Origin: Blattabacterium cuenoti
GTDB lineage: Bacteria > Bacteroidota > Bacteroidia > Flavobacteriales > Blattabacteriaceae
Direction of reading: 5' to 3'
DNA: 64,000 bases
Assembly: GCF_014252035.1 (NCBI RefSeq)
Contig: NZ_CP059207.1
Coordinates: 1-64,000, forward strand
Under the pieces are notes generated by a model, which saw nothing but the letters and a program-made list of their open reading frames with translations, was not told the origin of the DNA and made no database searches. Shown here piece after piece: positions 17,781 to 52,712 of the stretch. Made by a program: the position numbers and the translations under genes. Each line of letters starts with the position of its first letter. Position 1 is the stretch's first letter.

Positions 17781-19132
17781 ATGTCATATATCATAATCTA
17801 TCGCATTACAACTTTTTTTTTAAAAATTATTTATGGATAATTATATTATTATTTGTTCTATTAACTAATAAAATAGGATGCAGTAATATAAAAATTATAC
17901 ATGTTGATTCTATACAAAAAAATGATAGTACTCATTCTATTTCTTTAATAGGAAATGTTCATTTAAAATATAATGAATATCATCTTTTTTGTAAAAAAGC
18001 TGTTTATTATTATCATAATAAAATAAGGAAATTTTATGGATTTGGACAAGTTAAGTTAATTTCGAAAGAAAATAAAATACTTTCTAAAAAGATAGAATAT
18101 ATAGGGAGAACACATCTACGATTTTCAGGAGGTACAAAATTATTTTATGGAAATACTAAACTTTTCGCAGATACCATTAATTTTTTCTTTCACAAAAGAA
18201 TATTTAGATCTGTTGGTCATGTTATCTGTTATTATAATAAAGTTATAAAGATAAAAACTAATGTTTTAGAATATAACTTAAAATCTAAAGAATTGTATTA
18301 TAATAATGGAGCTTGGATTCATTATTATAATAATAAATTAAAACTAACTATATATAGTAATAAAGGTTATTTTTTTTCCAAAAAAAGAAAAGCAAATTTA
18401 AAAAATAAGGTTAAAATTTTTGATGGAAATTATACTTTATATTCTAATGCAATGGAATTTTTATTAGAAGAAAATATAATAAATTTTTATACTCCTGCTA
18501 TTCTTAAAAAAGAAAGAAATGTTAAAAATAAATTAAATAATCATTTATTACTATCTAATAAAACATCTTTTTTGATAAATAAAAGAATTTTTATATTTAG
18601 AAAATACAAAATATATTATAAAGAAATAGTATTCATAGGAAATTCACTTTTTTTTGATCAAAAAAATGGTAAGTTGTTATTTGATAATCTATCGATAAAA
18701 AATAGAGAAAGAAAATTTTTATTTAAAGGACATGGAATTTTCGATTTAAATCAAAAAAATATTTCTCTCAAAAAAAGACCAAATATTATTTATAGTAATA
18801 AATCAAGTAATAGTAAATATTCAATATACATTAATGCAGATTTTATAAAAATTTTAGAGAAAAATTCAACATATTTAACTTATGTTTTTTCCGTTAAAAA
18901 TATTATTATAAATAAATATATCAAAGGAAAATGTAAGTTTTTAATTATTGATTCCTCAAAAAGAAAAATTAAATTTTTTGGTTCCCCTATAATATTATGG
19001 ATTGATAAACAAAAAATTACTGAAATACCTATTCATTTTATTGATTTTGATGAAATAAAAAGAAAAATTACAATCATATTTCTTAACAAAGAAAATATTT
19101 ATAAAAAAATTTTTATTAAAATTCGAAGATAA
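17781..19132 (+). pseudogene. OstA-like (LptA/LptD N-domain family) envelope protein, frameshifted at a T9 run
   Basis: Proteins of the OstA/LptA fold carry lipopolysaccharide across the periplasm. From the ATG at 17781 the frame reads MSYIIIYRITTFFLKIIYG and stops at 17840. The rest of the protein continues one frame over to 19132. The break lies in or near a run of nine T at 17813-17821. One added T would give a 450-residue protein with an N-terminal signal segment (WIIILLFVLLTNKIGCS) and then repeated beta-strand units such as SLIGNVHLKYNEYHLFCKKA, typical of OstA_N. A TTG at 18293 could start only a C-terminal fragment. The flavobacterial neighbourhood (ridA before, aminotransferase after) supports identity. 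It may be a true pseudogene, a slippage-rescued gene or a sequencing undercall. Confidence 0.75.
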
Positions 19133-19216
19133 TATTATTCAAAATCAAAAATTTTTTGGAAAAAAATTATAAATACTATGTTGTTAAAATTTTGTAAAAT
19201 AACGAAATAAAACTTT

Positions 19217-20395
19217 ATGGAAATAGAAAATGATTTTTTAAAATATCAAGCACAAATAAATCCTAGACCAATGAAAATAATAGTTGATTATGCTGATGGA
19301 AATTATATTTATGGAAAAAATGGAAAAAAATATTTAGATTTTGTATCGGGAGTTTCTGTAAACGTATTAGGACATGGCAATAAAAAAATTAAGAAAGCAA
19401 TAAAGAAACAAATAGATAAATATTTGCATACTATGGTTTATGGAGAATTTATACAGGAACCTTCTGTTTTACTTTGCAAAAAAATAGCAGATAATCTTCC
19501 GTTTCCACTTAAAAATACATATTTAGTTAATTCAGGAACTGAAGCAGTAGAAGGAGCTTTAAAATTAGCTAAAGCTTATACAGGTAGAGAAGAAATTATT
19601 TCTTTTAAATTATCATATCATGGAAGTACTCATGGTTCTATGAGTATTATGGGAAATGAAGATAAGAAAATATATTTTAGACCTCTTATTCCTTTAGTAA
19701 AATTTATTAATTATAATAATATAGAAGAATTAGTTGATTCTATATCAGAAAAAACAGCATGTATAATTTTAGAAACTATTCAATGTTCTTCTGGAATTAT
19801 ATTACCTAATATCTCTTTTTTAATAAAAATCAGAAATTTATGCAACCATAAAAAAGTTTTAATGATTTTTGATGAAATACAAACTGGATTTGGAAGAACA
19901 GGAAAACTATTTGCATTTGAACATTATGGAATCATCCCTGATATATTAATAATGGGAAAAGCAATGGGAGGAGGTATACCAATTGGAGGATTTGTCTCAT
20001 CTAAAGAAATTATGAAATCTTTTATTCCACTCGGACATTTGACCACGTTTGGAGGAAACGCTGTAGCAGCTTCTGCTGCGTTATCTACTTTAGATCAAGT
20101 TATAAATTCTGATTTAATGAAAAAAGTTTCAGTAAAAGAAGAATTGATTAGAAAATATTTAATACATGATAAAATTAAAAATATCAGTGGAAAAGGATTA
20201 CTTTTATCTATTGAATTAAAAAATAAAAATTATACTAGGAAAATATTAGAATATTGTTTAAAAAATGGATTGATATTATTTCCTTTTTTATTTAAGGAAA
20301 ATGCGTTACGCATATCTCCTCCATTAACTATTACAGAAGATGATATTTTTAAAGGATGTTCGATTATTATGGATAGTTTAACAAAAATAAAATAA
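19217..20395 (+). CDS. Class III PLP-dependent aminotransferase (acetylornithine/aspartate aminotransferase family)
   Basis: This 392-residue fold-type I, class III aminotransferase has the cofactor residues in place: VNSGTEAVEGALKLA near 100, the Asp of MIFDEIQTGFGRTG near 220, and the PLP lysine in MGKAMGGGIPIGGF near 250. The family includes ArgD (acetylornithine aminotransferase), and that is one reasonable role. Flavobacteria also carry a generic member next to the OstA-like gene, as here, so the substrate is not proven. No other arginine gene is adjacent. The stop is followed directly by the truA TTG start. Confidence 0.9.
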   Translation: MEIENDFLKYQAQINPRPMKIIVDYADGNYIYGKNGKKYLDFVSGVSVNVLGHGNKKIKKAIKKQIDKYLHTMVYGEFIQEPSVLLCKKIADNLPFPLKNTYLVNSGTEAVEGALKLAKAYTGREEIISFKLSYHGSTHGSMSIMGNEDKKIYFRPLIPLVKFINYNNIEELVDSISEKTACIILETIQCSSGIILPNISFLIKIRNLCNHKKVLMIFDEIQTGFGRTGKLFAFEHYGIIPDILIMGKAMGGGIPIGGFVSSKEIMKSFIPLGHLTTFGGNAVAASAALSTLDQVINSDLMKKVSVKEELIRKYLIHDKIKNISGKGLLLSIELKNKNYTRKILEYCLKNGLILFPFLFKENALRISPPLTITEDDIFKGCSIIMDSLTKIK

Positions 20396-21157
20396 TTGAG
20401 ATTTTTTATAGAATTATCTTACAATGGAAAGAATTTCCATGGATGGCAAGTCCAAAAAAAAGTAAATACTATAGAAGGTCAATTAGAGTATTGCTTTTCA
20501 AAATTATTGAAAACTCCTATAAATATAATAGGAGCTAGTAGAACAGATACGGGGGTCCATGCTAAACAAATGTTTGCACATTTTGATTACGAAAATCAAA
20601 TTCATGATAATTTTTTATATAAACTAAATATATTTCTACCTCATTCCATTAAAGTAAACAGTATTTTTCCAGTTAAAAATTATGCTCATGCTAGATTTAA
20701 TGCTACAAGTCGAACCTACAAATATTTTCTTACATGTGAAAAAAATCCATTCTATCGTGATATTTGTTGGTATTATTTTTATTCATTAGATATTAAAAAA
20801 ATGAATCAAGCCGCAAAAATTTTAATGGATTATAAAGATTTTAGTTCTTTTTGTAAAAAAAATTCTAGCAGTAACAATAATATATGTCATATCTATCAAT
20901 CTTATTGGTCGTTTAAAAAAAATATTTTTTGTTTTACTATTGAAGCTAATAGATTTTTGAGATCTATGGTAAGATCTATAATAGGAACAATTTTAGATGT
21001 AGGTAGAAAAAAAATTGACATTGATGAATTCAATGAAATTATAAAATTAAAAAAAAAATATCATTATTCTAGTTCTATAGTTCCTGCATGTGGTTTATTT
21101 CTTACTAATATTATTTATCCAGAAGACATTTTTTATGAAAAAAAATTCGAAAAATAG
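20396..21157 (+). CDS. truA: tRNA pseudouridine(38-40) synthase TruA
   Basis: TruA makes pseudouridine at positions 38-40 of the tRNA anticodon arm. The 253-residue protein begins with the typical MRFFIELSYNGKNFHGWQVQ strand. The catalytic Asp is in GASRTDTGVHAKQ near residue 51. The C-terminal RFLRSMVRSIIGTILDVG segment near 188 is the other conserved block. The start is TTG at 20396, the first codon after the preceding stop. Its 3' end overlaps the ABC exporter start by 23 bases. Confidence 0.94.
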   Translation: MRFFIELSYNGKNFHGWQVQKKVNTIEGQLEYCFSKLLKTPINIIGASRTDTGVHAKQMFAHFDYENQIHDNFLYKLNIFLPHSIKVNSIFPVKNYAHARFNATSRTYKYFLTCEKNPFYRDICWYYFYSLDIKKMNQAAKILMDYKDFSSFCKKNSSSNNNICHIYQSYWSFKKNIFCFTIEANRFLRSMVRSIIGTILDVGRKKIDIDEFNEIIKLKKKYHYSSSIVPACGLFLTNIIYPEDIFYEKKFEK

Positions 21158-22898
21158 AAAATCTTCTTTCATGGAATTTATTAAAATTAGTTTGAATTAT
21201 AAATTTATTTTAATATCAACAATACTCATATCTATATTAATATCTTTTATTTCTGCTTATCGACCAAAATTAATTCAGAAAGCTATAGATTTTTATATTT
21301 TATACAAAGATTTTATTGGTCTACAAAAGATAATAATCTTAATAATTTCTCTCATTTTTTTAGAAAGTATATTTCATTTTATCTTGTTGCATTTATCAAA
21401 TGTTTTAGCACAAAATGTAATTGAAAAAATTAAAATATTATTATTTAACAAATTATTGCATTTCAATAGTACTTATTTGAACAAAACTCCTATAGGAAAA
21501 TTGGTTTCTTATTCTGTTTCTGATATAGAAACTATCACAGTAATATTTAATGATGGTATATTACTTGTTTCAGGAGATATTTTAAGAATCATTATGATCA
21601 TAATTATGATGTATACTGTGCATAAAAAATTATGTTTTATTGTTTTTTTAACAATACCTTTTATGTATTTTATCACTCGTTTTTTTCAAAAAACGTTAAA
21701 AAAGACATTTCATGAAGAACGAATATATTCGTCTCGTTTAAATAGTTTTCTTCAAGAAAATATTATAGGAATGTCTATTGTTCAGTTATTTAACAAAGAA
21801 AAGGAAAAATATTTAAAATTTAAGTCCATTAATTATAGTTTAATGAAATCTCATTTTAAAACTATATTTTACTTTTCCATTTTTTTTCCTATAGTTGAAT
21901 TAGTATCTTCTTTTACGATAAGCGGTGTAATATTTTATGGAGGAATTTATGCTATTGGTAAGGATAATATTCAACCAGGTCAAATTATTGCTTTTATATT
22001 TTTTATTTATCTTATATTTCGTCCAATGCGACAAATTGCAGATCGATTTAATATTATACAAAGAGGTATAGCTGGAATAGAGAGGATTTTCTATATATTA
22101 AATTCTGATGAAGAAATAACTCCTAATAATGGAAAAATTTATTTAAGGAAATTAAAAGGACATATTGTATTCAATAATGTTTACTTCTCATATATGGAAA
22201 ATAATGATGAAATGGTTCTAAATGGGATTTCTTTTGAAATAAAACCAGGAGAAAAAGTTGCTATAGTAGGATCTACCGGGTCTGGAAAATCTACAATTAC
22301 ACATTTAATTTCTAGATTATATGATATAAAAAAAGGAAATATATGGATTGATGGACATAATATACAGGATATTGAATTAAAAAATTTAAGATCTCATATA
22401 AGAGTAGTAGCACAGGATACATTTTTATTTAATGATTCTATTATGAATAATATTACTTTAGGAGATACTTCTATTGGTATAGAGGAAATAAAAAATGTAG
22501 CTAAAAAAATAGGAGTACATAATTTTATTACTTCATTACCTAATGGGTATCAATATGTAGTAAAAGAAAGAGGAGGGTATCTTTCTCTTGGAGAAAAGCA
22601 ACTAATTTCTTTTTTAAGAGTACAGATGCATCCTTATTCTATTCTCATTTTAGATGAAGCTACAGCATCATTAAATAAAGAATTAGAAAAAATGATATAT
22701 CAAGCTACTGAAATTTTAACTAGAAAAAAAACTTCTATAATTATAACTCATCGTTTATCTACATTAAAAAATGCAGATAAAATACTTGCGATTCATAAGG
22801 GACATATTGTGGAAAAAGGTACTCATGATGAATTAATATATTTAAATGGATATTACGCAGGATTATACAAAGAATCTTTTAAAAAGAATTTAAATTAA
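21135..22898 (+). CDS. ABC-type exporter, MsbA-like (membrane domain fused to ATPase)
   Basis: This is a half-transporter of the lipid/multidrug exporter class, with six predicted membrane helices (about 1-315) fused to an ATPase (about 335-585). The ATPase has Walker A VGSTGSGKST, signature LSLGEKQL and Walker B ILILDEAT, with the H-loop in IITHRLST. The signature departs from LSGGQ, but LSxGQ-type variants are usual in this branch. I choose the ATG at 21135 (MKKNSKN), which lies inside the truA 3' end; the frame opens earlier, at 21090. Substrate is unknown; lipid A precursor export is one option. It converges with the SurA-like gene with a 4-base overlap. Confidence 0.9.
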   Translation: MKKNSKNRKSSFMEFIKISLNYKFILISTILISILISFISAYRPKLIQKAIDFYILYKDFIGLQKIIILIISLIFLESIFHFILLHLSNVLAQNVIEKIKILLFNKLLHFNSTYLNKTPIGKLVSYSVSDIETITVIFNDGILLVSGDILRIIMIIIMMYTVHKKLCFIVFLTIPFMYFITRFFQKTLKKTFHEERIYSSRLNSFLQENIIGMSIVQLFNKEKEKYLKFKSINYSLMKSHFKTIFYFSIFFPIVELVSSFTISGVIFYGGIYAIGKDNIQPGQIIAFIFFIYLIFRPMRQIADRFNIIQRGIAGIERIFYILNSDEEITPNNGKIYLRKLKGHIVFNNVYFSYMENNDEMVLNGISFEIKPGEKVAIVGSTGSGKSTITHLISRLYDIKKGNIWIDGHNIQDIELKNLRSHIRVVAQDTFLFNDSIMNNITLGDTSIGIEEIKNVAKKIGVHNFITSLPNGYQYVVKERGGYLSLGEKQLISFLRVQMHPYSILILDEATASLNKELEKMIYQATEILTRKKTSIIITHRLSTLKNADKILAIHKGHIVEKGTHDELIYLNGYYAGLYKESFKKNLN

Positions 22899-24151
22899 GA
22901 AGAGTATGAACAATTATTAATTCTTATATAGGTTTTATTTGATATACTTTTTGCCCATTCTTTTATTTTTTCTTTTTTTTTCATTTCTCTTATGAAATTT
23001 TCTAGTATAATATAATCTTTATCAAAAGATAAAGGACGAGATGGAATTTCATCTAAAAATTTTAGAATAAAGAATATTTTTTTGCCATTTATAGTATCCT
23101 CATATGGATAAGAAATTTTTCCTTTTCTTAAATGACGTAATGCTTTAATCATATTTTTTGATAAATTATTTTCATTAACCCATATATTTTCCAATATAGA
23201 TACATTTTCTATTTTATTTTTAGATATATCTTCTAAACTAATTTTGTTATTAAGAATACGTTTTCTAATAGTATTAGCATACAATTTTGTTTTATACAAT
23301 GTATTTTTATCATATTTATTATCATTATTATTTTTTCTGTCTATTACATGTATTATGTCTACTTCATCGTTTCTATTATCTTCTAATTTTATTAAATGAA
23401 ATCCTAAGTTTGTTTCAAAAGGTTCAGATATTTCTCCCTTTTTTAAATTACGAATCACATTTCCAAATTCTTTTGGAAGAAGATTAATTTTCAATTTTTT
23501 TATTGAAACTATGTCTAATCCTGGGTATTTAAATTTTTCAGAAGAAAAATTTAAATCAGAACGTATTTTATTTTTAATATTATTATATAAACTAGTAATT
23601 TTATTATGTTTTTTTTTTGATTTAGGATAAAAAATTATGTAAGAAATATTTAACATTTTCGGTAAAAAAGGTATTTTATTTTTATTAATATGTAAAAAAT
23701 CACGTATTTCTTTAGGAGTAACTTCAATATCACTTGTTATTTTTTTGATAAAATTTTGAATATACTGTTCATTTTTAATCATTTCAATTATCTCTTCTTG
23801 AGATAAATTTTTTATATTTTTGTTATTTCTTATTATTAATTTAGGAAACAACATTTGATATTGTAATTTTAATTCTTTATCATCTATTTTTATGAATGGA
23901 TCTTTTTTTGCATGATATAACATTAATTTTCTAATAAAAAATTGATCTTTAGGATCAAAAAAATCTTTACAGTTTTTATTTGTTCTAATTTTTTTAGAAA
24001 AAGTAATATCATTTCCTATAATCATTGGAATATATCCTATTTTTTCCAATTTTTCTTTTTCTATATCATTTATCTTAGTAGAAGAATAAGAATATGTAAA
24101 AAAAACAATAAAGAAAATGAAAAAATATTTTTCAAAAAAACTGTTTATCAT
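22895..24151 (-). CDS. Periplasmic SurA-like peptidyl-prolyl isomerase
   Basis: This is a predicted periplasmic chaperone/parvulin that helps outer-membrane proteins fold. The 418 residues start with a signal peptide (about 1-23, FFIFFIVFFTYSYSS). A SurA_N-like helical segment and a parvulin domain follow (about 170-270), with FPKMLNISYIIFYPK-like and KKGEISEPFETNLGFHLIKL motifs. A second, weaker isomerase-like region near 290-380 ends in RHLRKGKISYPYED and GKKIFFILKFLDEIPSRP. Sequence is strongly AT-biased, so the match is by motif. Transcription converges with the ABC exporter and is divergent from lptB. Confidence 0.82.
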   Translation of the reverse strand: MINSFFEKYFFIFFIVFFTYSYSSTKINDIEKEKLEKIGYIPMIIGNDITFSKKIRTNKNCKDFFDPKDQFFIRKLMLYHAKKDPFIKIDDKELKLQYQMLFPKLIIRNNKNIKNLSQEEIIEMIKNEQYIQNFIKKITSDIEVTPKEIRDFLHINKNKIPFLPKMLNISYIIFYPKSKKKHNKITSLYNNIKNKIRSDLNFSSEKFKYPGLDIVSIKKLKINLLPKEFGNVIRNLKKGEISEPFETNLGFHLIKLEDNRNDEVDIIHVIDRKNNNDNKYDKNTLYKTKLYANTIRKRILNNKISLEDISKNKIENVSILENIWVNENNLSKNMIKALRHLRKGKISYPYEDTINGKKIFFILKFLDEIPSRPLSFDKDYIILENFIREMKKKEKIKEWAKSISNKTYIRINNCSYSS

Positions 24152-24215
24152 AAATAAAATATTTTAAATAAAATTAATAGAAAAATTTTATACAATACAA
24201 ATTATTATTGTTCTA

Positions 24216-24944
24216 ATGAACTTAATAGCTCAAAATATATACAAAAAATATAATAAACAATATGTAGTTGAAAATATTTCTTTTCAATTATCTCAAGGAG
24301 AAATAGTCGGATTAATAGGACCGAATGGATCAGGTAAAACAACATGTTTTCACATGATAGTTGGAATAGTAAAACCTACAAAAGGTAAAATTTTTCTTAA
24401 TGAAAAAAATATTACAGAATATCCAATGTATTTACGTTGTAGAAATGGTATTGGATATTTATCTCAAGAACCATCTATATTTAGAAAACTTTCTGTAGAA
24501 GAAAATATATTATGCATATTAGAAATGCAAAAAAAATATTATAAAAATAAAAGTGAAATAACAGATAAATTAATTATAAAATTAAAATTACAAAATATCC
24601 GTAAAAATCGGGGAGATCTTCTTTCAGGTGGAGAAAGAAGAAGGACTGAAATTGCTAGATGTTTAGCAATAAATCCCAAATTTATACTTTTAGATGAACC
24701 TTTTTCTGGAATAGATCCCATATCTGTAGAAAATCTACAAAATATAATTCTTTCTCTTAAAAAAGAGAATATAGGGATTTTAATAACAGATCATAATGTA
24801 CAAGATATATTTATGATAACTGATCGTGTTTATTTAATGTTCAATGGAAAATTGCTAAAACATGGAACTACTACAGAATTCATGAAGGATTCTTTAGTAA
24901 GAAGAATTTATTTAGGGAATCGTTTTTTTACTCATTCTAAATAA
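24216..24944 (+). CDS. lptB: LPS export ABC transporter ATPase LptB
   Basis: LptB powers extraction of lipopolysaccharide from the inner membrane into the Lpt bridge. The 242-residue ATPase has Walker A GPNGSGKTT near residue 37, signature LSGGERRRTEIARCLA near 140 (the E-R-R-R-T-E variant is typical of LptB), Walker B FILLDEPFSGIDP near 160, and ITDHNVQD. The N-terminal MNLIAQNIYKKYNKQYVVE agrees with flavobacterial LptB. No LptF or LptG is present in the window. thiN follows after 6 bases. Confidence 0.94.
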   Translation: MNLIAQNIYKKYNKQYVVENISFQLSQGEIVGLIGPNGSGKTTCFHMIVGIVKPTKGKIFLNEKNITEYPMYLRCRNGIGYLSQEPSIFRKLSVEENILCILEMQKKYYKNKSEITDKLIIKLKLQNIRKNRGDLLSGGERRRTEIARCLAINPKFILLDEPFSGIDPISVENLQNIILSLKKENIGILITDHNVQDIFMITDRVYLMFNGKLLKHGTTTEFMKDSLVRRIYLGNRFFTHSK

Positions 24945-24950
24945 ATAAAA

Positions 24951-25577
24951 ATGAATAATCATCGTTTTAAAGGACCTAAAGTAGGATTATTTCTTAATGG
25001 AGATCCATCTTTTATATCACACAAAAAAATATCCTTTTATGAAAAAATTTTTTCTGTTGATGGAGCTTTTTACTATTTAACTAAATTAGGAATATCCATT
25101 GATTATATAATTGGAGATATTGATTCAATATCAAAAAAAGATATTCCTTTAGAAAAAACTATTTTCACTTATAATCAAAAATATACAGATTTTGATAAAG
25201 CTTTAAATATAGTTTATAAAAAAGGATTTTTTAATATCGATGTTTGGGGTGGTAGTGGTAAGGAACAAGATCATTTTTTAGGTAATTTATCCACAGCTTT
25301 AAAATATAAGAAAAAACTGTCTATTATATTCTATGATAGATATCACTTTTATTTTTTTTCTGATAAAAATAATGTTTTCTATCAGAAAAAAAATAAAAAT
25401 ATATCGCTATTTCCATTCCCTTTAGTAAAAGGATTAAAAACTAAAGGATTAAAATACAAAGTTAATAAAGGTTGTTTCAAAATAGGTAAAAATATAGGAA
25501 TAAGAAATAAATCTTGTAATGAAAGAATAGAAATAAATTATATAGAAGGTGAACTATTAATTTTTATAGAAAGATAA
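24951..25577 (+). CDS. thiN: Thiamine pyrophosphokinase
   Basis: This enzyme converts thiamine to thiamine diphosphate, the cofactor of the E1 subunit of SucA-type dehydrogenases. The 208-residue protein has the family motifs: VDGAFYYLTKLGISIDYIIG with GDIDSISKKD near 50, the TDFDKALNIV segment near 80, and WGGSGKEQDHFLGNLSTALK near 100. The C-terminal thiamine-binding beta region is AT-biased but full length. It is just downstream of lptB and converges with mdh. A kinase for ready-made thiamine suggests the vitamin may come from outside, but thiamine biosynthesis genes could lie elsewhere in the genome. Confidence 0.87.
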   Translation: MNNHRFKGPKVGLFLNGDPSFISHKKISFYEKIFSVDGAFYYLTKLGISIDYIIGDIDSISKKDIPLEKTIFTYNQKYTDFDKALNIVYKKGFFNIDVWGGSGKEQDHFLGNLSTALKYKKKLSIIFYDRYHFYFFSDKNNVFYQKKNKNISLFPFPLVKGLKTKGLKYKVNKGCFKIGKNIGIRNKSCNERIEINYIEGELLIFIER

Positions 25578-25589
25578 AATAATAAAGAA

Positions 25590-26516: not shown

Positions 26517-26627
26517 TTTTTTATTACGTAATATTTTTTTTATAAGCTCTATTTAATTTACCTAAATTTGTAATCAAATAAGGAAAATAAAATAAATCAA
26601 AGATAAATACAATTTCTAATTTAGATT

Positions 26628-30562: not shown

Positions 30563-30790
30563 TGGTAGTTATTATTTATTATCCAATATCCAATACTTAT
30601 ATAAAAATTAAGGTTAATTAATATAAAAATAATAATGTCATAAAAATTATGAAAAAATTTTTATAACTTAAAATTTAAATAAGGTTATCCATAAATAAAT
30701 TCATAATATTTTGTAAAAATAATAATACTTTTCTTCAAAAGAAAGTTTTGTATCTTGGTACTTTTAATTAAGAAATAAAAATATAAAATA

Positions 30791-31369: not shown

Positions 31370-33409
31370 ATGTATAGCTTTTTAAAAAAGTTTTCTACAT
31401 ACAATAATAAAAAAAATATTTCGTATAAGATTTTAGTTACAGTGATTATAGTCTTATCATTGACATTTTTTTTTCCGAAAAAAGAAATTTTTAAATATGA
31501 ATTTTACAAAGGAAAAATTTGGTATTATGAAGATTTATTTTCTCCATTTAATTTTATTGTTTTAAAAAGTAAAAAAGACATTAATTTAGAAATTAAGAAT
31601 CTTAAAAAAAGTCAAAAAATATTCTATAATAAAAATGAAAAAATATTTCAAAGGGTAATAAAAATTATTCATAATAATTCTTTTTTAAGAAAGAAAGAAA
31701 ATAAACATTACTATAAGATTATTTTTCGTTTATTAAATATTATTTATAAATATGGATATTTAAAATATCAGTATTTTCCGAGTATAAACAGTAGAAATAA
31801 AATATTTCTTTTGAAAAAAAATAATGAGACAATAGCAATTTCATATAATAAGATTTTCACCTATAAAAAAGTAAATAATATTATTGAAAAGCATTTCTTA
31901 GATAGAAAAAAAAATGAAAAAAAAATTAAAAAATTATTAAAAAGAATTATAGCTCCTAATTTTTTTTATAATAAAAAATATACAGATAATTATTTTTATA
32001 AAAAAATAAAAAATATCAGTAAAATAAAGCATTCTTTTGGAAAAGGAAAAATTATAATAAAAAAAAATAAAGTAATAGACGATGAAAAATTTTATATTTT
32101 ATCTTCTTTAAAAAAAGAATATGAAAATAAAATATGGAATAAAAATAAAAATATTTACTTAAAAATAGGTTATTTTTTAATAATAAGTATTATATTTTTA
32201 ATATTTTTATTGTATTTCTTTTACTTTCAAAACAAGATATTTCATAAAAATAGAGAATTTAATTTTTTGATTACCAGTATATTTTTCACATCAATTATAA
32301 CAATATTCATACTCAAGTATAATTCTAGAATATTATATATAATTCCTTTTTCTATACTTCCTATTAGTGTTCGTTCCTTTTATAATTTTGATGTCAGCAT
32401 TATTATTCATTTAACAACTATTCTATTACTATCTTTGATTACACCAAATAGTTTAGAATTTATTTTACTTCAAATTATTACAGGATTTTTAGTACTACTG
32501 ACGAATAAAAATATCTCTAAAATGGAAAACCTATTCGTATCTGTAGTAAAAATAATTATTACTTATAGCATAACTTTTATTTCACTTACCTTTATTCGTA
32601 AAGGAACTATAGAAAATATCCCATTACAAACTTTTTATTTATTTTTTTTTAGTGGAATTTTTACGTTATTTGTACATCCATTAATATTTATTTTCGAAAA
32701 ATTATTAAATATAACTTCAGATATTTCTTTACTAGAATTATCAAATATGAACAACCCAATATTGAGATTATTATCTCAGAAAGCTCCAGGTACTTTACAA
32801 CATGTTCTTACTGTAGCAAATATAGCAGAAGAAGCCGCGGTGGCTATTGAAGCTAATTCATTATTAGTAAGAATAGGAGCAATATATCATGATATTGGAA
32901 AAATTAAAAAATCAGTTTTCTTTATTGAAAATCAAAATAATTTGTTAAATCCTCATGAAAAATTAAGTCCAATAGAAAGTGTCAAAATTATTTTAGAACA
33001 CGTATCAATTGGAGTAAAATTAGCTGAAAAATATCATTTACCTAATCGTATCACTGATTTTATTAAAACTCATCATGGCGATAGTACGATTCAATTTTTC
33101 TATGAAAAACAAAAAAAAATAAATGCAAAAGTAGATAAAAAACAGTTTCAATATCCAGGACCTAAACCATTTTCAAAAGAAACTGCTATTGTAATGATAG
33201 CTGATTCTGTAGAAGCAGCTTCAAAAAGTATAAAGAATCCATCTAATAAAGATTTGGAAAATTTAGTAGAAAATATTATAAATAAACAAAAAAAAGAAAA
33301 TCAATTTTCTGATACTGACATAACTTTGAAAGAAATAGAAAAAATAAAAAAAGTAATTAAAGAAAAATTAATCAGTATCTATCATCCTAGAATAGAATAT
33401 CCTAGATAA
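31370..33409 (+). CDS. 7TM-HD family membrane phosphohydrolase (PgpH/YqfF-like)
   Basis: This 679-residue membrane protein has a first helix near 25-40, a long periplasmic 7TMR-HDED region (about 45-260, very Lys/Asn-rich), about seven membrane helices (about 265-450) and a cytosolic HD domain. The HD residues are visible in IGAIYHDIGKIKK near 500, and HLPNRITDFIKTHHGDS lies further on. Members such as Listeria PgpH hydrolyse cyclic di-AMP, which gives a possible role, but the substrate here is unproven. The gene ends about 50 bases before the tRNA cluster. Confidence 0.88.
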   Translation: MYSFLKKFSTYNNKKNISYKILVTVIIVLSLTFFFPKKEIFKYEFYKGKIWYYEDLFSPFNFIVLKSKKDINLEIKNLKKSQKIFYNKNEKIFQRVIKIIHNNSFLRKKENKHYYKIIFRLLNIIYKYGYLKYQYFPSINSRNKIFLLKKNNETIAISYNKIFTYKKVNNIIEKHFLDRKKNEKKIKKLLKRIIAPNFFYNKKYTDNYFYKKIKNISKIKHSFGKGKIIIKKNKVIDDEKFYILSSLKKEYENKIWNKNKNIYLKIGYFLIISIIFLIFLLYFFYFQNKIFHKNREFNFLITSIFFTSIITIFILKYNSRILYIIPFSILPISVRSFYNFDVSIIIHLTTILLLSLITPNSLEFILLQIITGFLVLLTNKNISKMENLFVSVVKIIITYSITFISLTFIRKGTIENIPLQTFYLFFFSGIFTLFVHPLIFIFEKLLNITSDISLLELSNMNNPILRLLSQKAPGTLQHVLTVANIAEEAAVAIEANSLLVRIGAIYHDIGKIKKSVFFIENQNNLLNPHEKLSPIESVKIILEHVSIGVKLAEKYHLPNRITDFIKTHHGDSTIQFFYEKQKKINAKVDKKQFQYPGPKPFSKETAIVMIADSVEAASKSIKNPSNKDLENLVENIINKQKKENQFSDTDITLKEIEKIKKVIKEKLISIYHPRIEYPR

Positions 33410-33459
33410 TTAAATTAATTTGTTTATTTTTATTAGTGTTTTTTTTAGTAGTAATTTTT

Positions 33460-33545
33460 GGAGAGTTGCCGGAGTGGTTAACGGAACAGTTTGCTAAACT
33501 GTCGGTATTATAAATACCGCGTGGGTTCGAATCCCACATTCTCCG
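33460..33545 (+). tRNA. tRNA-Ser (GCT anticodon)
   Basis: A class II tRNA cloverleaf with acceptor stem GGAGAGT paired to ATTCTCC. The anticodon loop reads TTTGCTAA, giving anticodon GCT (codons AGC/AGU). The long variable arm (GGTATTATAAATACC) is typical of serine. The T-arm is GTGGGTTCGAATCCCAC and the discriminator is G. CCA is not encoded. It is the first of three tandem tRNAs. Confidence 0.95.
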
Positions 33546-33550
33546 CTTTT

Positions 33551-33625
33551 CGGGGTATAGCGTAGTTTGGTTATCGCGCCTGGTTTGGGACCAGGAGATC
33601 GTAGGTTCAAATCCTGCTACCCCGA
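33551..33625 (+). tRNA. tRNA-Pro (TGG anticodon)
   Basis: The cloverleaf has acceptor stem CGGGGTA paired to TACCCCG. The anticodon arm CCTGGTTTGGGACCAGG gives anticodon TGG, and the T-loop is GGTTCAAATCC. The first base C opposite G is usual for bacterial proline tRNA. The discriminator is A and CCA is not encoded. It lies 5 bases after tRNA-Ser. Confidence 0.95.
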
Positions 33626-33641
33626 CGTATAAATAAATATA

Positions 33642-33715
33642 GATCACGTAGCTCAAAAGGATAGAGCAACTGCCTTCTAAGCAGTAGGTTACAGGTTCGA
33701 ATCCTGTCGTGATCA
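33642..33715 (+). tRNA. tRNA-Arg (TCT anticodon)
   Basis: Acceptor stem GATCACG pairs with CGTGATC. The anticodon arm CTGCCTTCTAAGCAG gives anticodon TCT (codons AGA/AGG, the dominant arginine codons at this base composition). The T-arm is CAGGTTCGAATCCTG and the discriminator is A. CCA is not encoded. It ends 4 bases before the clpP stop on the other strand. Confidence 0.95.
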
Positions 33716-33719
33716 TTTT

Positions 33720-39926: not shown

Positions 39927-41360
39927 ATGCAAAAAATATTAAAAAAAATTATTTTTTCAACAAAAATGACTTCTTTTTTATTTTTAATATTGGTATTTTA
40001 TATGGCTTTAGCTACTTTTTTAGAACAAAAATATTCTACTGATGTAGCAAAAGTACTTGTCTATGAATCTATTTGGTTTGAAACTATCATTTCATTAATT
40101 ATTCTAAATTTAATAGGAAATATATGGAAATATAAATTGTGGAATAAAAAAAAATTTCCTCTTTTTATTTTTCACTTATCATTTGTTATTATTTTCATTG
40201 GAAGTGTTATTTCTAGATATTATAGCCAAGAAGGAATAATCTCTATAAGAGAAGGAGAAAAAACTAATAAAATTTTATCAAAGAAAAATTATATTAAATT
40301 GAACATTAATACAGGTAATAGTAAATACGTTAAAACTTATTATCAACCTTATATATTTTCACATTTTCACAATAATTACAGTGGTAAATTTTTTTTTCAT
40401 AACCATCCAATAATAATAAAATTTACTAATTATATTCCATGTGCAAAAATGATTTTTTCAAAAAAAGAAAAAGAAGATAAAATTATAAAACTCATTTTCT
40501 CCGTAAAAGAGAATAATATGAAAGAAATTTTTATTAAAAATGGAGAAATAAAAACGATAAATGGAGTTCATTTTTCTTTTAATAAAGATAACCCTTTGGG
40601 AATAAAAATTTTTGATATAGATGATGATAGAATCTATATCAAATCTTTTTTTCCAATAAATACCATAAATATGGTAACTAAAAAAAATAGTTATTTGTCA
40701 AACAATCATTATCATGTATTACATACCAAAAAATTATATCAAATATTAGTTAATCATGATACAAAAATAAATATTGTTATTCCAGAAGGAATTATAAAAG
40801 GAAAATTAAAATACATTCCTTGTGACAAAAAAAATGAAAATACAGTAGAAAAAAATACTTTTTTTAGTGCTTTTACTGCAAGAATATATTTTAATAATCA
40901 ATCCAAGCTAGTTACATTTTTAGGTGGTAAAAATACAATGAATATGAGTGATCCTATTATATTTAACAATGGTTATAAAATATCTATTGGATATGGATCT
41001 ATATTTTGGACACTACCCTTTTTCTTAAAACTAAATAAATTTAAACTGGAAAATTACCCCGGATCTAATTTACCTTCTTCTTTTATGAGTTATGTAACTA
41101 TTTTAGATAAAAAAAATTATCATTATTCTATTCATATGAATAGAATACTAGATTATAAAGGATATCGATTTTTTCAATCTGGATATGATCCAGATGGAAA
41201 AGGGTCACATTTTTCCATAAATGATGATTATTTAGGAACATATTTATCATATTTTGGATATGCTCTTATGAGTATTGGTATGTTTCTTAACTTATTTTGG
41301 AAAGGTACTAGATTTTATTTTCTAAAAAAACAGTTAAAAAAATACTTACATGAAAAATAA
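39927..41360 (+). CDS. ccsB: Cytochrome c biogenesis protein CcsB (ResB-like)
   Basis: CcsB works with CcsA to deliver haem to apocytochrome c on the outer face of the inner membrane (System II). The 477 residues have three N-terminal helices (about 15-95), with ALATFLEQKYSTDVAKVLVY and the HLSFVIIFIGSVISRYYSQEG segment. A large periplasmic region follows, then DYKGYRFFQSGYDPDGKGS near 420 and a last helix. In Bacteroidetes CcsB and CcsA are usually one fused chain; here the frame ends at 41360 and CcsA continues in another frame from 41350. Confidence 0.88.
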   Translation: MQKILKKIIFSTKMTSFLFLILVFYMALATFLEQKYSTDVAKVLVYESIWFETIISLIILNLIGNIWKYKLWNKKKFPLFIFHLSFVIIFIGSVISRYYSQEGIISIREGEKTNKILSKKNYIKLNINTGNSKYVKTYYQPYIFSHFHNNYSGKFFFHNHPIIIKFTNYIPCAKMIFSKKEKEDKIIKLIFSVKENNMKEIFIKNGEIKTINGVHFSFNKDNPLGIKIFDIDDDRIYIKSFFPINTINMVTKKNSYLSNNHYHVLHTKKLYQILVNHDTKINIVIPEGIIKGKLKYIPCDKKNENTVEKNTFFSAFTARIYFNNQSKLVTFLGGKNTMNMSDPIIFNNGYKISIGYGSIFWTLPFFLKLNKFKLENYPGSNLPSSFMSYVTILDKKNYHYSIHMNRILDYKGYRFFQSGYDPDGKGSHFSINDDYLGTYLSYFGYALMSIGMFLNLFWKGTRFYFLKKQLKKYLHEK

Positions 41361-43125
41361 ATATTTTTTTATTATCATATTGTTTTTTACAAGCATAAAT
41401 TATTCTTTTTCTCAAATACATGAATCAAAAAAAATAATACCGTTAAAAAATATACCTGATGTTATACACATTCCTAAAAAACATGGAGATAATTTTGGTC
41501 ATTTATTGGTGCAAGATGATAAAGGAAGAATTAAACCTATTAATACTTTAGCAATAGAATTACTTAGAAAAATACATAAAAAAAATTCTATAGAAAATTT
41601 AGATGCTAATCAATGGCTGATATCTATGCATCAAGATAATTTTTTTTGGATAAAAGTGCCATTTATAAAAGTAGATTCAAAAGGAGGATTCAATTTTTTA
41701 AGAAAAGTAAACGCAAATCAAGATAATTATGTTTCTATGATGAATCTTTACAGTTTTAATCCAAAATCAAAAAAAATAAAATTTCTTTTACAAGAAGATT
41801 ATAAAGTAGCTTTATCTAAAAATCCTATGCATAGAAATGAGTATGATAAATCTGTTATTCTTCTTAGTGAACGTATAGGTATTCTTCATGAGATTTTTCA
41901 GGGTAAATATTTACGTATTTTTCCTATTCCAAACGATATACATCATACTTGGTCAAGTTGGATTATTATGGATTCTAAATATAGTAGACTTAACCCCTAT
42001 GGTTTTTCTATGTTTAATGATTACTTAAAATCCTTATTTAGAGCACAAAATGAAAAAAATTGGAAAATTGCTGATCAAGAAATTGAAAAAATACGACTAT
42101 ATCAAATTAAATATGCTAAATCTATATTACCTACAAATAGAAAGATTTCCGTAGAAATTATGTATAATAAAATACATATATTTTACACATTATCTTTTTT
42201 ATATGCTATTTTAGGATTAATAATCATTTTTAATTCTTTTTTAAGCATTTTTTTTCACAAAAAATATTTATCTATTTCTTATAAAATATTAGTTACTATT
42301 GTATTAATTTTATTTATTCTTCAATCATTAGGTTTAATTTCAAGATGTTATATATCTGGTCATGCTCCATGGAGTAATGGATATGAATCAGCGATTTTTA
42401 TTAGTTGGTGTTTAACTGTTATAGGTTTGATATTTTATAATAATCAATTTGTATTAGGAATAACTTCTTTGATATCATCAATTTTACTAATGATAGCACA
42501 TAGTAATATTATGGATCCAGAAATAACCAATCTAGTTCCTGTATTAAAGTCCAATTGGCTTATTATACATGTAGCAACAATAACATCAAGTTATGGATTT
42601 TTTTTTACCGGATCTCTTTTAGGATTTTTAGTATTAATATTATATATATTAAGTGGTTTTTTCCCTTTACATAAAAAAATGATAAAAATTCATATTGAAC
42701 GATTAACTATTATTAATGAGATGTGTTTAACTATAGGTATTTTTTTATTGACTATAGGAACTTTTTTAGGTGCAATTTGGGCAAATAATAGTTGGGGAAG
42801 ATATTGGAGTTGGGATCCAAAAGAAACTTGGGCGTTGATTAGTATTATAATTTATGCATTTGTATTGCATATACGGCTAATACCCTCTATTAGAGGTCTA
42901 TATTCTTTTAATTTTTTTAGTGTATTATCTGTATTTTCTATAATTATGACCTATTTTGGAGTTAATTATTATCTATCTGGTTTGCATTCTTATGCTAAAG
43001 GAGAACCATTAGAAATATCTTATTGGGTATATTGCAGTTTATTACTATTCATAATTATTACAATAGCATCTTACTATTGCAAACAAAAGTATAACAACAT
43101 AAATAAAAAAGTTAATTATAAATAA
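41350..43125 (+). CDS. ccsA: Cytochrome c haem exporter CcsA
   Basis: CcsA carries the haem-handling WWD domain of System II cytochrome c maturation. The 591 residues begin with a signal-like helix (YFFIIILFFTSINYSFSQ). A periplasmic part follows (DNFGHLLVQDDKGRIKPINT near 45), then about eight helices. The WWD motif NNSWGRYWSWDPKETWALI lies near 478, and histidines occur in HVATITSSYGF and the HIRLIPSIRG region. It starts inside ccsB (11-base overlap, different frame). The two frames together equal the length of the fused Bacteroidetes protein. Confidence 0.9.
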   Translation: MKNKYFFIIILFFTSINYSFSQIHESKKIIPLKNIPDVIHIPKKHGDNFGHLLVQDDKGRIKPINTLAIELLRKIHKKNSIENLDANQWLISMHQDNFFWIKVPFIKVDSKGGFNFLRKVNANQDNYVSMMNLYSFNPKSKKIKFLLQEDYKVALSKNPMHRNEYDKSVILLSERIGILHEIFQGKYLRIFPIPNDIHHTWSSWIIMDSKYSRLNPYGFSMFNDYLKSLFRAQNEKNWKIADQEIEKIRLYQIKYAKSILPTNRKISVEIMYNKIHIFYTLSFLYAILGLIIIFNSFLSIFFHKKYLSISYKILVTIVLILFILQSLGLISRCYISGHAPWSNGYESAIFISWCLTVIGLIFYNNQFVLGITSLISSILLMIAHSNIMDPEITNLVPVLKSNWLIIHVATITSSYGFFFTGSLLGFLVLILYILSGFFPLHKKMIKIHIERLTIINEMCLTIGIFLLTIGTFLGAIWANNSWGRYWSWDPKETWALISIIIYAFVLHIRLIPSIRGLYSFNFFSVLSVFSIIMTYFGVNYYLSGLHSYAKGEPLEISYWVYCSLLLFIIITIASYYCKQKYNNINKKVNYK

Positions 43126-43127
43126 TA

Positions 43128-43925: not shown

Positions 43926-43929
43926 AGTT

Positions 43930-46641: not shown

Positions 46642-46699
46642 TCTTTAGTTTAGATATTTAAAATGTTTAAATTTAAAGTAAAAAAATAATCAACAATCT

Positions 46700-49504: not shown

Positions 49505-49517
49505 AATTTTATACACT

Positions 49518-50789
49518 ATGATAACAAAGGTAAAAGTTCCTTCACCCGGAGAATCTATTACAGAAGTAGAAGTAAGTTCCTGGTTTGTTAAAAGTGGGGA
49601 TTATGTACAAAAAGGACAAATAATAGCTGAAATTGATTCAGATAAAGCTACTTTAGAAATTTCTTCGGAAGAAAATGGAGTAATAACCTTAATGGTAGAA
49701 AAAGGAGAAAGAGTAAAAATAGGAGATGTATTATGCATTATTGACAATTCTTCTAAAAAAAATTTAGAAAATATTCAGAATAATCAAAATATAAAATCTA
49801 AAATAGATGAAAATAAAGAGCATGATAAAGATAGTAAAAATGCATCTCCAGCTTCTAAAAAGATCATAAGAGAAAATAATATTCCTTTAGAATCAATTAA
49901 AGGAACTGGAAAACATAAAATGATTACAAAATCAGATTGTGTTTCATATTTAATAAATGAAAAAAATAATTTTTCTACATATTCAGATGATAATTATTCC
50001 ACTATAAATAGAAATATAGCACCACCTATGTACCGTTCAAAAACGGTAAAAAATCTTTCTTCTCTAAGAAGAAAGATATCGGATAGATTAGTTTCATCAA
50101 AAAATGAAACAGCCACATTAACTACATTTAATGAAGTGGATATGCAAGAAATATTTATCATAAGAAAAAAATATAAGGATATATTTAAAAATAAACATGG
50201 TGTTAACTTAGGTTTTATGTCTTTTTTTACTCTTTCTTGTGTTAGAGCTTTAAAATTATATCCAGATGTAAATGCGATGATTGATGGAGATAAAAAAGTA
50301 AATTTTAATTATTATGATATTAGCATTGCTATATCTGGTCCAAAAGGACTAATGGTTCCTGTAATAAGAAATGTAGAAAATTTATCATTTAGAGGAATAG
50401 AACAAGAAATAGTTAGATTATCTAATCGTGTTCATAATGGTACGATTTCTATAGATGAAATGACAGGAGGGACTTTTACTATAACAAATGGAGGTATTTT
50501 TGGATCTATGCTTTCTACTCCTATTATAAATCCTCCACAAAGTGCTATTTTAGGAATGCATAAAATTATGAAAAGACCGATAGTATTATCTGATGTTTGT
50601 GGTAATAATGGTGGTGATTCTATTCATATTCGACCTATTATGTATTTAGCTTTATCCTACGATCATAGAATAATTGATGGAAGAGAATCTGTCGGATTTT
50701 TAGTTTCTGTTAAAGAAACTATAGAAAATCCCATCAAGTTTTTGATGGGTGGAGATGAAAAAAATATTCAAAGTGTATTGGAAATATAA
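49518..50789 (+). CDS. sucB: 2-oxoglutarate dehydrogenase E2, dihydrolipoamide succinyltransferase
   Basis: SucB transfers the succinyl group from lipoate to CoA. The 423 residues contain a lipoyl domain with the modified lysine in EIDSDKATLEIS near 43, a linker, the E1/E3-binding domain (SPASKKIIRENNIPLESIKG near 113) and the catalytic domain with LSYDHRIIDGRE near 387, holding the His and Asp of the active site. Linkage to sucA shows it is the succinyl type, unlike the E2 at 6,211. E3 (lpd) is not in the window. Confidence 0.95.
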   Translation: MITKVKVPSPGESITEVEVSSWFVKSGDYVQKGQIIAEIDSDKATLEISSEENGVITLMVEKGERVKIGDVLCIIDNSSKKNLENIQNNQNIKSKIDENKEHDKDSKNASPASKKIIRENNIPLESIKGTGKHKMITKSDCVSYLINEKNNFSTYSDDNYSTINRNIAPPMYRSKTVKNLSSLRRKISDRLVSSKNETATLTTFNEVDMQEIFIIRKKYKDIFKNKHGVNLGFMSFFTLSCVRALKLYPDVNAMIDGDKKVNFNYYDISIAISGPKGLMVPVIRNVENLSFRGIEQEIVRLSNRVHNGTISIDEMTGGTFTITNGGIFGSMLSTPIINPPQSAILGMHKIMKRPIVLSDVCGNNGGDSIHIRPIMYLALSYDHRIIDGRESVGFLVSVKETIENPIKFLMGGDEKNIQSVLEI

Positions 50790-50792
50790 TAA

Positions 50793-51352
50793 TTAAAAAA
50801 ATTTGTTCCTTATGTAAGGATTTTGTTTATTTTTTACAATATTCATTTTTTTCATTTGCATTTTTACTATTTTAATTTGATCATGTAATATTCCGGATAT
50901 ATCTGTTTTTTTTGCTTCTAATAGAAGAATTTCCGCTTTTTTTTTGTCTCCTTTTGATAGACACGCTATGGCCAAACTAAATTTGGCTATTGCTATGTTT
51001 TGTTTAAATTTTAAACCATGATCAAGAGCTTTTTTCATATAATTTTCGGATTGAAAAATATTTATTTCTGAATATAAGATCCCATTTAAAAAATAAAAAT
51101 AAGATAATTGATTATCAGTTAGTTGTGATTTTGGATTTTTGATATATGACAAATATTTTTTTAATCCTTTCATATCTCTATTTCTTATTTTGAAAAAAGA
51201 CAATAATAAAAATTCATTTCTAAAAATAAGAAATATAGGGATAAGGCTTATTAAAAACGTAATAGTTCCAAAAAAATAATTTTTTTTGATAAAAAAAAAA
51301 TAGATATTAAAAATATTGGTATAAATAAAATTAATTTTGTATGTTTTTTCAT
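50793..51352 (-). pseudogene. TPR-like membrane protein, frameshifted at A10/T8 runs
   Basis: An ATG at 51352 begins MKKHTKLILFIPIFLISIFF, a membrane helix, but the frame stops at 51251. The conserved remainder lies one frame over. One added base in the plus-strand A10 run (51291-51300) or T8 run (51280-51287) would join the parts into a 186-residue protein with two N-terminal helices (second: TITFLISLIPIFLIFRN). A soluble TPR-like part follows (QLSYFYFLNGILYSEINIF, YMKKALDHGLKF, AIAKFSLAIACLSKGDKKKA). A TTG at 51203 could start the soluble part alone. Related proteins of unknown function occur in flavobacteria. Confidence 0.65.
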
Positions 51353-51364
51353 AAAAATATTTGA

Positions 51365-52024
51365 TTAAAAATTTTTTTCTTTTATCCAGTTAATAAGATC
51401 TTCATAATTAGAATTACACAAAAAATGTCCAGAATCATATTCTTTAAAGGAATAAGAATATATTCCTTTCTTCTTAAGTATATTTAAACTTTTTTTTGCC
51501 CAACTTATAGGAATGATAAGATCATTTTTTCCATGAGAAATGAAAAATTCTAAATTTTTATTTAAAATAGAATTTTTTTTTATAATTTTTCTTTCTAAAT
51601 ATCCACTTAATATAATAGATTTTTTTACTTTTATATTTTCTAGACTTATAGCATAACATAGTATAGCACCTTGACTAAATCCACATAACCAAACATTATT
51701 ATTATTCAATTGATATTTATTTATAACCTCATTGATAAAATGATTTATTTTTTCAATAGTTTTTTCAGCTTGTAGAACATGAACAAATTTTTCTTTGTTA
51801 GAAAAATCTATGTGATACCAAAAATATTTTCCTTTTTCAATGGAGTAATTTCCTTGTATACTAATAACACAAAAATTTTCTGGTATATCTTTTGTTATAG
51901 AAAAAAGATCTTTTTCATTACTACCATAACCATGAATCATTAAAAATAGACTATAATTATCCTTACTTTTTTTTGGTTTTCTAATAATATATTTAAAAGA
52001 TAAGTCTTCATTATTTAAAAACAT
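51365..52024 (-). CDS. Phospholipase/carboxylesterase family alpha/beta hydrolase
   Basis: The 219-residue protein has the alpha/beta-hydrolase plan: the oxyanion segment LFLMIHGYGSNEKDLF near residue 30, the nucleophile elbow WLCGFSQGAILCYAIS near 113 (G-F-S-Q-G), the catalytic Asp near GKNDLIIPISWA, and the His in EYDSGHFLCNS near 200. It resembles small carboxylesterases/acyl-protein thioesterases. The natural substrate is unknown. It sits 5 bases after the lolD frame on the same strand. Confidence 0.85.
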   Translation of the reverse strand: MFLNNEDLSFKYIIRKPKKSKDNYSLFLMIHGYGSNEKDLFSITKDIPENFCVISIQGNYSIEKGKYFWYHIDFSNKEKFVHVLQAEKTIEKINHFINEVINKYQLNNNNVWLCGFSQGAILCYAISLENIKVKKSIILSGYLERKIIKKNSILNKNLEFFISHGKNDLIIPISWAKKSLNILKKKGIYSYSFKEYDSGHFLCNSNYEDLINWIKEKNF

Positions 52025-52029
52025 AATTA

Positions 52030-52712
52030 TTAATAATTTTTATTTTTTACTAAACCATTTTTTATTTCCATTATTTCATCTGCCATGTTTGCTAATTCAA
52101 TATTATGAGTAACAATCAAAAAAGTTTTTTTAAATTCTTTTTTAAGAAAAAAAAATAATTGATGTAAATTATCAGCGTTTTTTTTATCTAAATTTCCAGA
52201 AGGTTCATCTGCAAATATTATTTCAGGATCATTAATTAATGCTCTTGCTATAGATAATCTTTGTTTTTCTCCACCAGATAATTCATCAATTTTTGAATTA
52301 ACATGTTTATAAATATTTAATTCTTTTAATAGATTTATTGCAGTATCTTGAATATTTTTTCTATTTTTTTTTCTATTTATTAAGCCGGGTAAACTTACAT
52401 TTTCTAATACTGTAAGTTCTGGTAAAAATTCTGGATTCTGAAAAATAAAACCTATATTTTCATTTCTTACATAAGAAAGATTTTCATCAGACATAGATAA
52501 AATATCTTTTCCATTTATTTTTAAATAAGTTTTTACATTTTTTTTTTTGTAGGTTGATCTAGTGTTCCTAATATATGTAAAAGTGTACTTTTTCCAGATC
52601 CAGATTCTCCTAAAATACATGCTAAATGTCCTTTTTTTATGGATATAGTAACTCCTTTTAAAATATATTTTTTATTATCAAAAGATTTATAAATATTCTT
52701 GGCTTTAATCAT
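52030..52712 (-). pseudogene. lolD: Lipoprotein-releasing ABC ATPase LolD, frameshifted at an 11-base A/T run
   Basis: LolD is the ATPase of LolCDE, which extracts lipoproteins for the outer membrane. From ATG 52712 the frame encodes MIKAKNIYKSFDNKKYIL and Walker A LGESGSGKST, then hits a stop at 52533-52535. The remainder (Q-loop FIFQNPEF, signature ELSGGEKQRLSIARAL, Walker B EIIFADEPSG, H-loop VTHNIE) continues one frame over to 52030. The break is at a T11 run on the plus strand (52538-52548). A twelfth base would restore 227 residues, the normal LolD length. An ATG at 52620 opens the second frame but its first 30 codons are out-of-frame lolD sequence, so it is not a real start. Confidence 0.82.

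Follow-up and report, generated by a model that had tools for sequence, protein, structure and literature searches.

Single-base losses in long A/T runs of Blattabacterium core genes and their likely correction by RNA polymerase slippage

Frameshifts in poly(A) tracts are said to be rescued by transcriptional slippage in Buchnera and Blochmannia, reportedly in work by Tamas (2008) and Wernegreen (2010). Programmed slippage of the dnaX type and in insertion sequences likewise uses an A run as its slippery element. In bacteria, transcriptional slippage is known to occur at runs of nine A or T, and for Buchnera and Blochmannia genes an excerpted account gives 12-50% of transcripts as corrected by it (PMC5009743). 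Slippage-rescued frameshifts in these two genera are thus prior cases (PMC3017870, PMC5009743, as excerpted), and in six Blochmannia genomes, again according to excerpts, 4 to 8 such frameshifted genes were counted per genome (PMC4389277).

Here we analysed a stretch of 64,000 nucleotides from Blattabacterium cuenoti (positions 1 to 64,000 of contig NZ_CP059207.1, assembly GCF_014252035.1; hereafter the window), which lies on a single contig of 621,526 bases with 24.6% G+C, together with the genome around it (G000). An initial annotation had proposed that three genes of the window, encoding OstA-like and TPR-like proteins and the transporter ATPase LolD, are each short by exactly one base in an A/T run, and that either slippage decoding or a systematic undercall of long runs is responsible. 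We find that single homopolymer frame faults in genes under selection form a real class that occurs in several lineages of the genus. In this genome seven genes each lack a single base at an A/T run of 10-11 bases, and RNA polymerase slippage likely restores the missing base, predicting full-length proteins; from comparative sequence evidence we give this reading a probability of roughly 0.72. Within the window lolD and the TPR-like gene belong to the class, with strong evidence for lolD only, while the OstA-like gene does not.

The lolD fault and the other candidate genes of the window

The gene lolD, encoding the ATPase of the LolCDE lipoprotein exporter, lies at 52030..52712 on the minus strand, as judged from frame reading, homologues and NCBIfam. 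Its first frame begins with an ATG at 52712, carries the Walker A motif and ends at a stop at 52533, just past an A11 tract (52538..52548, minus strand; T11 on the plus strand) that is one short of its in-frame length; the homologous frame, offset by one base, continues to 52030. The initial annotation was therefore right that this 11-base run needs one more base. LolD is the top NCBIfam match of the downstream piece, below the curated cut-off. The same tract is short by one in the closest relative of this genome, G019 (hereafter the sister, from a tree built from three proteins), and in G036.

The fate of the partners of LolD, the FtsX-type permeases LolC/E, bears directly on whether such a gene is dead. 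Our comparison set comprised 49 genomes of the genus Blattabacterium (this one and 48 relatives), of which 36 were matched by the FtsX-type permease family, the same 36 that have lolD; the 13 genomes without lolD are exactly the 13 without FtsX-type (LolCE) permeases, a distribution for which parsimony requires three losses. Faulted lolD occurs in eight genomes (G000, G001, G018, G019, G021, G025, G036 and G047), where the G025 fault, at a T13, has the opposite sign, and permease genes are present in all eight. Both LolCE-like permeases of the genome analysed here are full length, and the LolCE model is the top hit of each, with scores under the curated threshold; in G021 the open frame of the second permease is shorter, at 219 amino acids. 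Were the faulted lolD dead its permeases should be disappearing too, yet they are kept in eight of eight genomes, which indirectly supports the idea that full-length LolD is made.

The second gene, a membrane/TPR-like gene (50793..51352, minus strand), was identified as one base short from its homologues; its first frame spans 51352-51251 and its second extends to 50793. The label TPR is that of the initial annotation, the downstream piece having no Pfam or NCBIfam match. The missing base stood up to comparison with the sister, which reads the same N-terminus in one frame, but the tract had been given as A10/T8, and the fault falls most simply in a T10 of the coding strand (A10 on the plus strand; 51291..51300, minus strand) that is one short of its in-frame length. 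We prefer this T10 to the adjoining A8 and T7 because G019 has a C within the stretch as well as one extra base. The gene was matched in all 49 genomes, and among the 49 copies compared the break is found here alone; a fault unique to one genome could be young. Separately, the copy of G008 contains one in-frame stop.

The third gene fared differently. For the OstA/LptC-like gene (17781..19132, plus strand; OstA being the label of the initial annotation), frame reading and relatives place the conserved frame, which extends to 19132, open upstream of the T9 run at which a fault had been claimed (17813..17821, plus strand), with no ATG, GTG or TTG there. The only ATG, at 17781, is in another frame, about seven codons upstream of the sister's start as judged by eye. 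The open frame comprises 455 amino acids here and 423 in G019, against about 560 in most relatives, with a shorter C-terminus, and the piece at 18293-19129 has no Pfam or NCBIfam match. The claimed T9 fault is therefore not upheld, and the length of the T9 together with the missing start codon and the shorter end excludes this doubtful member from the class; a change of start or decay may be involved. In G012 the interval 20379-23066 contains two tandem matches to this gene, one with three TAA stops, perhaps a duplicated, decaying copy. As for the rodA-like gene (11254-12498, minus strand), which serves as a control, its T10 (A10 on the plus strand; 11931..11940) does keep the frame by open reading frame (ORF) and run listing, as the initial annotation had noted, and so do most long runs.

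Frame faults at runs of ten or more bases across the genome and the genus

We aligned the proteins of G019 and G031 (565 genes each) to this genome in a frame-aware manner, and ran the scan in other directions too. Rows were retained with at least 20 aligned residues before the fault, at least 15 after it and an identity of at least.45 on both sides, a filter that misses faults near gene ends. Genes were named with Pfam, finer names being given by eye; lolD was named via NCBIfam, and folP and the small genes by eye. After filtering, 40 rows were left in G000, 14 of which represent nine tracts at runs of at least 10; we kept eight. Seven of these are short by one: the TPR-like gene (T10), lolD (A11), mutY (A10), mvaD (A10), ftsK (A11), rluD (A10) and cmk (A10). 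In the eighth, folP (538294), an extra base is found at or next to a T10. Thus lolD, the TPR-like gene and six further tracts each show a single indel in or beside a run in a gene otherwise in frame, a pattern from which the OstA-like gene departs. Seven tracts were found in G019, of which six were kept, all short (lolD, mvaD, ftsK, rluD, rsmI and a 120-amino-acid gene unmatched in G000), and five in G031, again all short: topA, birA, a mevalonate-kinase-like gene and two small genes, of which one lies about 90 bases away from masked sequence. In total 18 of the 19 kept tracts in the three genomes are short by one (p = 7.6e-5, the tracts not being independent, since three are shared).

The dependence on run length is sharp. 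A genome-wide count of coding runs of eight or more, as the initial annotation had suggested, gave 176 A/T runs of at least 10, 378 of 9 and 898 of 8 in 567 conserved ORFs, and faults exceed chance and are confined to the longest group, with eight kept faults per 176 runs of at least 10 and none per 1276 runs of 8-9 by our own curation (p = 4e-8; a faulted tract may itself fall outside the ORFs in which runs were counted). By this curation, frame loss begins at run length 10. Four places near runs of 8 (26526, 501207, 518075 and 560331) had been set aside, resembling start differences, a multi-fault pseudogene and overlapping ORFs; adding them gives p = 1.3e-5. Faults were found at 6 of 155 coding-strand A runs and 2 of 21 T runs, which supports no bias between the two (p =.24).

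That no gene would need a base removed held for the two good cases of the window and not for the genome, given folP. Indeed, a strict rule of always being short by one fails, since opposite-sign faults also occur among relatives in two topA copies (A11 in G013 and G016), two mvaD copies (G005 and G029), one lolD (the T13 of G025) and perhaps one ftsK (G015). The bias is a strong tendency rather than a law.

Other candidates were put aside. The 26 of 40 rows in this genome without a run of at least 10, assessed from the listing rather than individually, comprise start or end differences, tRNA ORFs, a fusion in relatives, antisense overlaps (560.3 kb) and a pseudogene with several faults (501.2 kb); a different kind of real fault may underlie some of them, for instance 213881, which is long by one and has no run. 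The short tracts at 101417 (T10, G000) and 411212 (A10, G019) are weak and near gene starts. Close to gene ends, and among the matches listed, we left out in this genome two short tracts from a looser list (109183, A11; 268884, T12) and three long ones (14400, T9; 512767, A9; 356517, A10), the last being the mirror of the G019 rsmI break. Of two further faults at A9 in G031, the one at 571175 borders on masked N bases and was unused, as was an event near 463.2-463.5 kb at an A117 adjoining N. This 117-A run (463241-463357 of G031) directly precedes the masked stretch within a conserved gene region. Loss of MutS was rejected as a cause, since this genome has a MutS domain in an 844-amino-acid open frame; the check covered MutS only, and MutL was not sought.

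Faults persist across species in lolD, mvaD and ftsK, where G000 and its sister each lack one base in the same tract, and over clades in topA. Among 40 orthologous tracts of at least 10 (37 from open frames, plus mvaD, ftsK and rsmI at their breaks), three are faulted in both genomes, mutY in G000 only, rsmI in G019 only and 35 in neither (p =.0016). The topA gene is faulted at about residue 67 in 13 of 46 genomes, with some 640 codons beyond remaining open, and its faults track the tree: they need 6 changes, whereas shuffles average 11.5 and none of 2000 was that low. In 40 genomes the topA run is A13 and in frame in four, A12 and faulted in eight, and in none 14; three further faulted copies have A10-11, and the two with A11 and the opposite sign are those of G013 and G016 mentioned above. 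The mvaD gene is faulted in 7 of 49 genomes, and ftsK is also broken in G003 and G024, both short. Genes for mvaD, ftsK and cmk were each matched in all 49 genomes, cmk being split in two matches only here.

Apart from the single fault, these genes look maintained. Frame-aware reading took in 40 topA, 37 mvaD and 36 lolD copies, of which 14, 7 and 8, respectively, are faulted, every such copy having a single net fault and, except near its ends, no in-frame stop; the copies outside this reading (6 topA, 12 mvaD) are each one single match. Ratios of nonsynonymous to synonymous divergence (pN/pS) beyond the fault, between G000 and G019, are.26 for lolD,.14 for mvaD,.31 for ftsK and.42 for rluD; across 478 genes of the genome the median is.25 and the 95% point.44. 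In pair comparisons restricted to pS of.05-.45, in which pairs overlap, pN/pS was.31 for both-faulted (53) and.40 for intact pairs (156) of topA,.22 (10) and.20 (412) for mvaD, and.28 (9) and.23 (251) for lolD. Therefore, faulted pairs are about as constrained as intact pairs in these three genes. In addition, A stays A at 14633 of 19580 four-fold sites between G000 and G019, and an unconstrained A10 would therefore survive whole about 5% of the time; the three whole shared tracts argue modestly against long neutrality.

Frames restored at a second site were also seen. Several small deletions within a short stretch of the G045 lolD add up to a multiple of three, so that the frame is regained behind the shared short tract, and small deletions do likewise in the G046 topA, where two events cancel. 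These are suggestive of second-site restoration by selection, or of an assembly oddity; we discarded them as proof of selection, these being odd clusters of losses in two genomes.

Several observations weigh against the slippage reading. The ftsK tracts lie in a poorly conserved linker; should those of G000 and G019 not correspond, the sharing between the two genomes, without ftsK, falls to p =.012. Tree signal is weak for mvaD and lolD (561 and 252 of 2000 shuffles as low) as it is when the A-tract of lolD is taken by itself (106 of 2000), and the tracts of both genes are also faulted in unrelated genomes; part of their sharing may thus be parallel. Faults in the TPR-like gene, mutY and cmk were not found in G019 and could be recent losses or errors. 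The rluD faults of the two genomes are in different tracts, the other genome having a run of only 5-6 at each, for which reason rluD was rejected as a shared fault, and its pN/pS is close to the genome 95% point (.438). There are, further, the faults of opposite sign in folP, topA, mvaD and lolD. Finally, topA is a C-terminal fragment in G011 and unmatched in G039 and G040, members of a small-genome clade, and so is dispensable in some genomes.

Two further features of the window were rejected as frame faults. Where this genome has two overlapping ORFs, by eye of a cytochrome c biogenesis type (39927-43125), G019 and G031 have one fused ORF of about 1052-1055 amino acids. The second of the two ORFs here begins with an ATG of its own and a signal-like start, and the apparent fault at 41350-41360 reflects a gene pair fused in relatives. 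The minus-strand ORF of 104 amino acids at 33402-33716 runs antisense to the tRNA genes for Ser, Pro and Arg, three genes here read as an ORF, and is likely not a protein gene.

Restoration of the frame and its alternatives

Ahead of the faults lie the Walker A motif of LolD, the N-terminal half of the TopA Toprim domain (Pfam 14-120) and the P-loop part of Cmk, with the rest of each protein behind. Because of this division, a restart behind the fault would probably not yield a working protein, and something must therefore join the frames. We infer that the correction takes place at the level of RNA. Under the scheme we propose, long A/T runs would lose a base by replication slippage; at runs of at least 10, where transcripts would already vary in length, such a loss would cost only part of the protein and could be fixed by drift. 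RNA polymerase slipping on the run would then restore the base in part of the transcripts, and selection would maintain the remainder of the gene. That losses outnumber gains would follow from a deletion bias of long runs, helped by a tendency of slippage to add A.

The frame might instead be restored by the ribosome, through -1 slippage on AAA (or TTT) codons that reads one base twice. Tandem AAA codons are a classical slippery sequence, and the deficit of one base in 18 of the 19 kept tracts has the sign that such a shift would correct; however, one -1 shift would leave uncorrected the opposite-sign faults of topA (A11 in G013 and G016), mvaD (G005 and G029), lolD (T13 in G025) and folP here. 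A ribosomal slip heptamer, moreover, needs a run shorter than 10, whereas the faults start sharply at 10. We favour RNA polymerase because transcriptional slippage can correct both signs and a -1 ribosomal shift only the short ones; the excess of short over long tracts is best ascribed to loss being the commoner mutation of long runs. Ribosomal correction is accordingly unlikely.

Equally doubtful, or slightly more so, is the proposal that genome copies vary in tract length within a host, the assembly giving the commonest length while in-frame copies supply the protein. Selection should spread an in-frame minority until it replaced the other copies, yet the topA fault persists along clades. 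Genome copy number is high in Blattabacterium, and long A runs do vary fast, as seen from topA, where four genomes have an in-frame run of 13 and eight an out-of-frame run of 12.

We consider it improbable that the genes are recently dead pseudogenes whose first fault happened to fall at runs of at least 10. A decaying pseudogene should show further faults or stops, relaxed selection or loss of partners, and none of these was seen in lolD, mvaD or topA: the 29 faulted copies are all free of a second net fault and, except near their ends, of stops, selection resembles that on intact copies, and permeases are kept with every faulted lolD and absent from all 13 genomes without it. The presence of mvaD, ftsK and cmk throughout the set speaks against death as well. 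Decay looks different where it does occur, in one ABC gene of G031 and in the gene near 501.2 kb of this genome (about 500.8-501.7 kb), which has three frame faults at short runs and is likely a true pseudogene, in contrast with the single-fault class. On the other side stand the loss of lolD from 13 of 49 genomes, the faults of the TPR-like gene, mutY and cmk that the sister lacks, and published annotation of other Blattabacterium: from Illumina data, metG, lolD, mvaK and ygaD are given as pseudogenes in one strain, and gltX, atpG, lolD, dnaN and resP in another, so that lolD is so called in two strains and mvaK in one (PMC6039017, in excerpt). The words frameshift and slippage do not occur in that report. 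Some of the listed pseudogenes are essential in bacteria generally.

Least credible of all is that sequencing or assembly systematically undercalls long A/T runs, which would produce the one-sided sign and the run-length dependence and might find an echo in the odd clusters of small losses in G045 and G046, but which should strike independently between genomes and of the tree, whereas only eight faults per 176 runs of at least 10 are found here, faults are common to G000 and G019, those of topA follow the tree, and the Illumina MiSeq study, as excerpted, also calls lolD a pseudogene in two other strains (PMC6039017). Between the two answers offered at the outset, slippage decoding is thus favoured over an undercall by sister sharing, the topA tree signal, purifying selection and the pattern of the LolCE partners, shorn of its strict rule and of the OstA-like member.

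If RNA polymerase slippage does restore these frames, Blattabacterium core genes that annotation may call pseudogenes likely work and calling them dead is probably wrong, as would be gene-loss counts and metabolic models for mvaD, ftsK, lolD, cmk and topA. The 49 genomes would then provide a natural experiment on the possible lifetime of a frame fault, and the partner test, asking if LolCE is kept or lost with lolD, would separate a rescued gene from a dead one without RNA. A far more speculative extension, which we regard as a long shot, is that A-run length acts as a heritable dial on core genes: genes such as topA, remaining one base short (A12 for A13) over long evolutionary times, might have their dose set by the rate at which RNA polymerase slips. 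Because that rate depends on the DNA-RNA hybrid, and through it perhaps on supercoiling, topA might then sense its own product, with slippage feeding back on DNA topology, and the genus would have a whole class of genes whose normal reading passes through a frame fault.

Comparison with known slippage systems

The phenomenon is known in kind and, as far as our literature search goes, new for Blattabacterium: no report of slippage rescue in this genus was found, most subscription papers being outside the search. If correct, it extends such rescue from gammaproteobacterial symbionts to the Bacteroidota. Slippage of the dnaX type and in insertion sequences yields two useful products, whereas here there is no sign that the short product is used. 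The closer likeness is to the cases described, in the excerpts cited at the start, from Buchnera and Blochmannia, which share with ours a single indel in a long A/T run, a gene otherwise intact, the same fault in more than one species, preserved selection, the inclusion of core genes and an AT-rich obligate insect symbiont as host. For example, eight frameshifted genes are given for Blochmannia vafer, against the eight tracts kept here, with replication and other core genes in both; the genes themselves differ, being dnaX, dnaG, pth, dxs, ribF and visC in B. vafer, and 153 coding polyA tracts of at least 9 are given there against 456 coding-strand A runs of at least 9 in the 567 conserved ORFs here (PMC3017870, in excerpt). 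Unlike those gammaproteobacteria, Blattabacterium belongs to the Bacteroidota; in contrast to those systems, the same gene is faulted across many species of the genus (topA in 13 of 46 genomes, mvaD in 7 of 49), and the fate of a partner gene has been added as a test.

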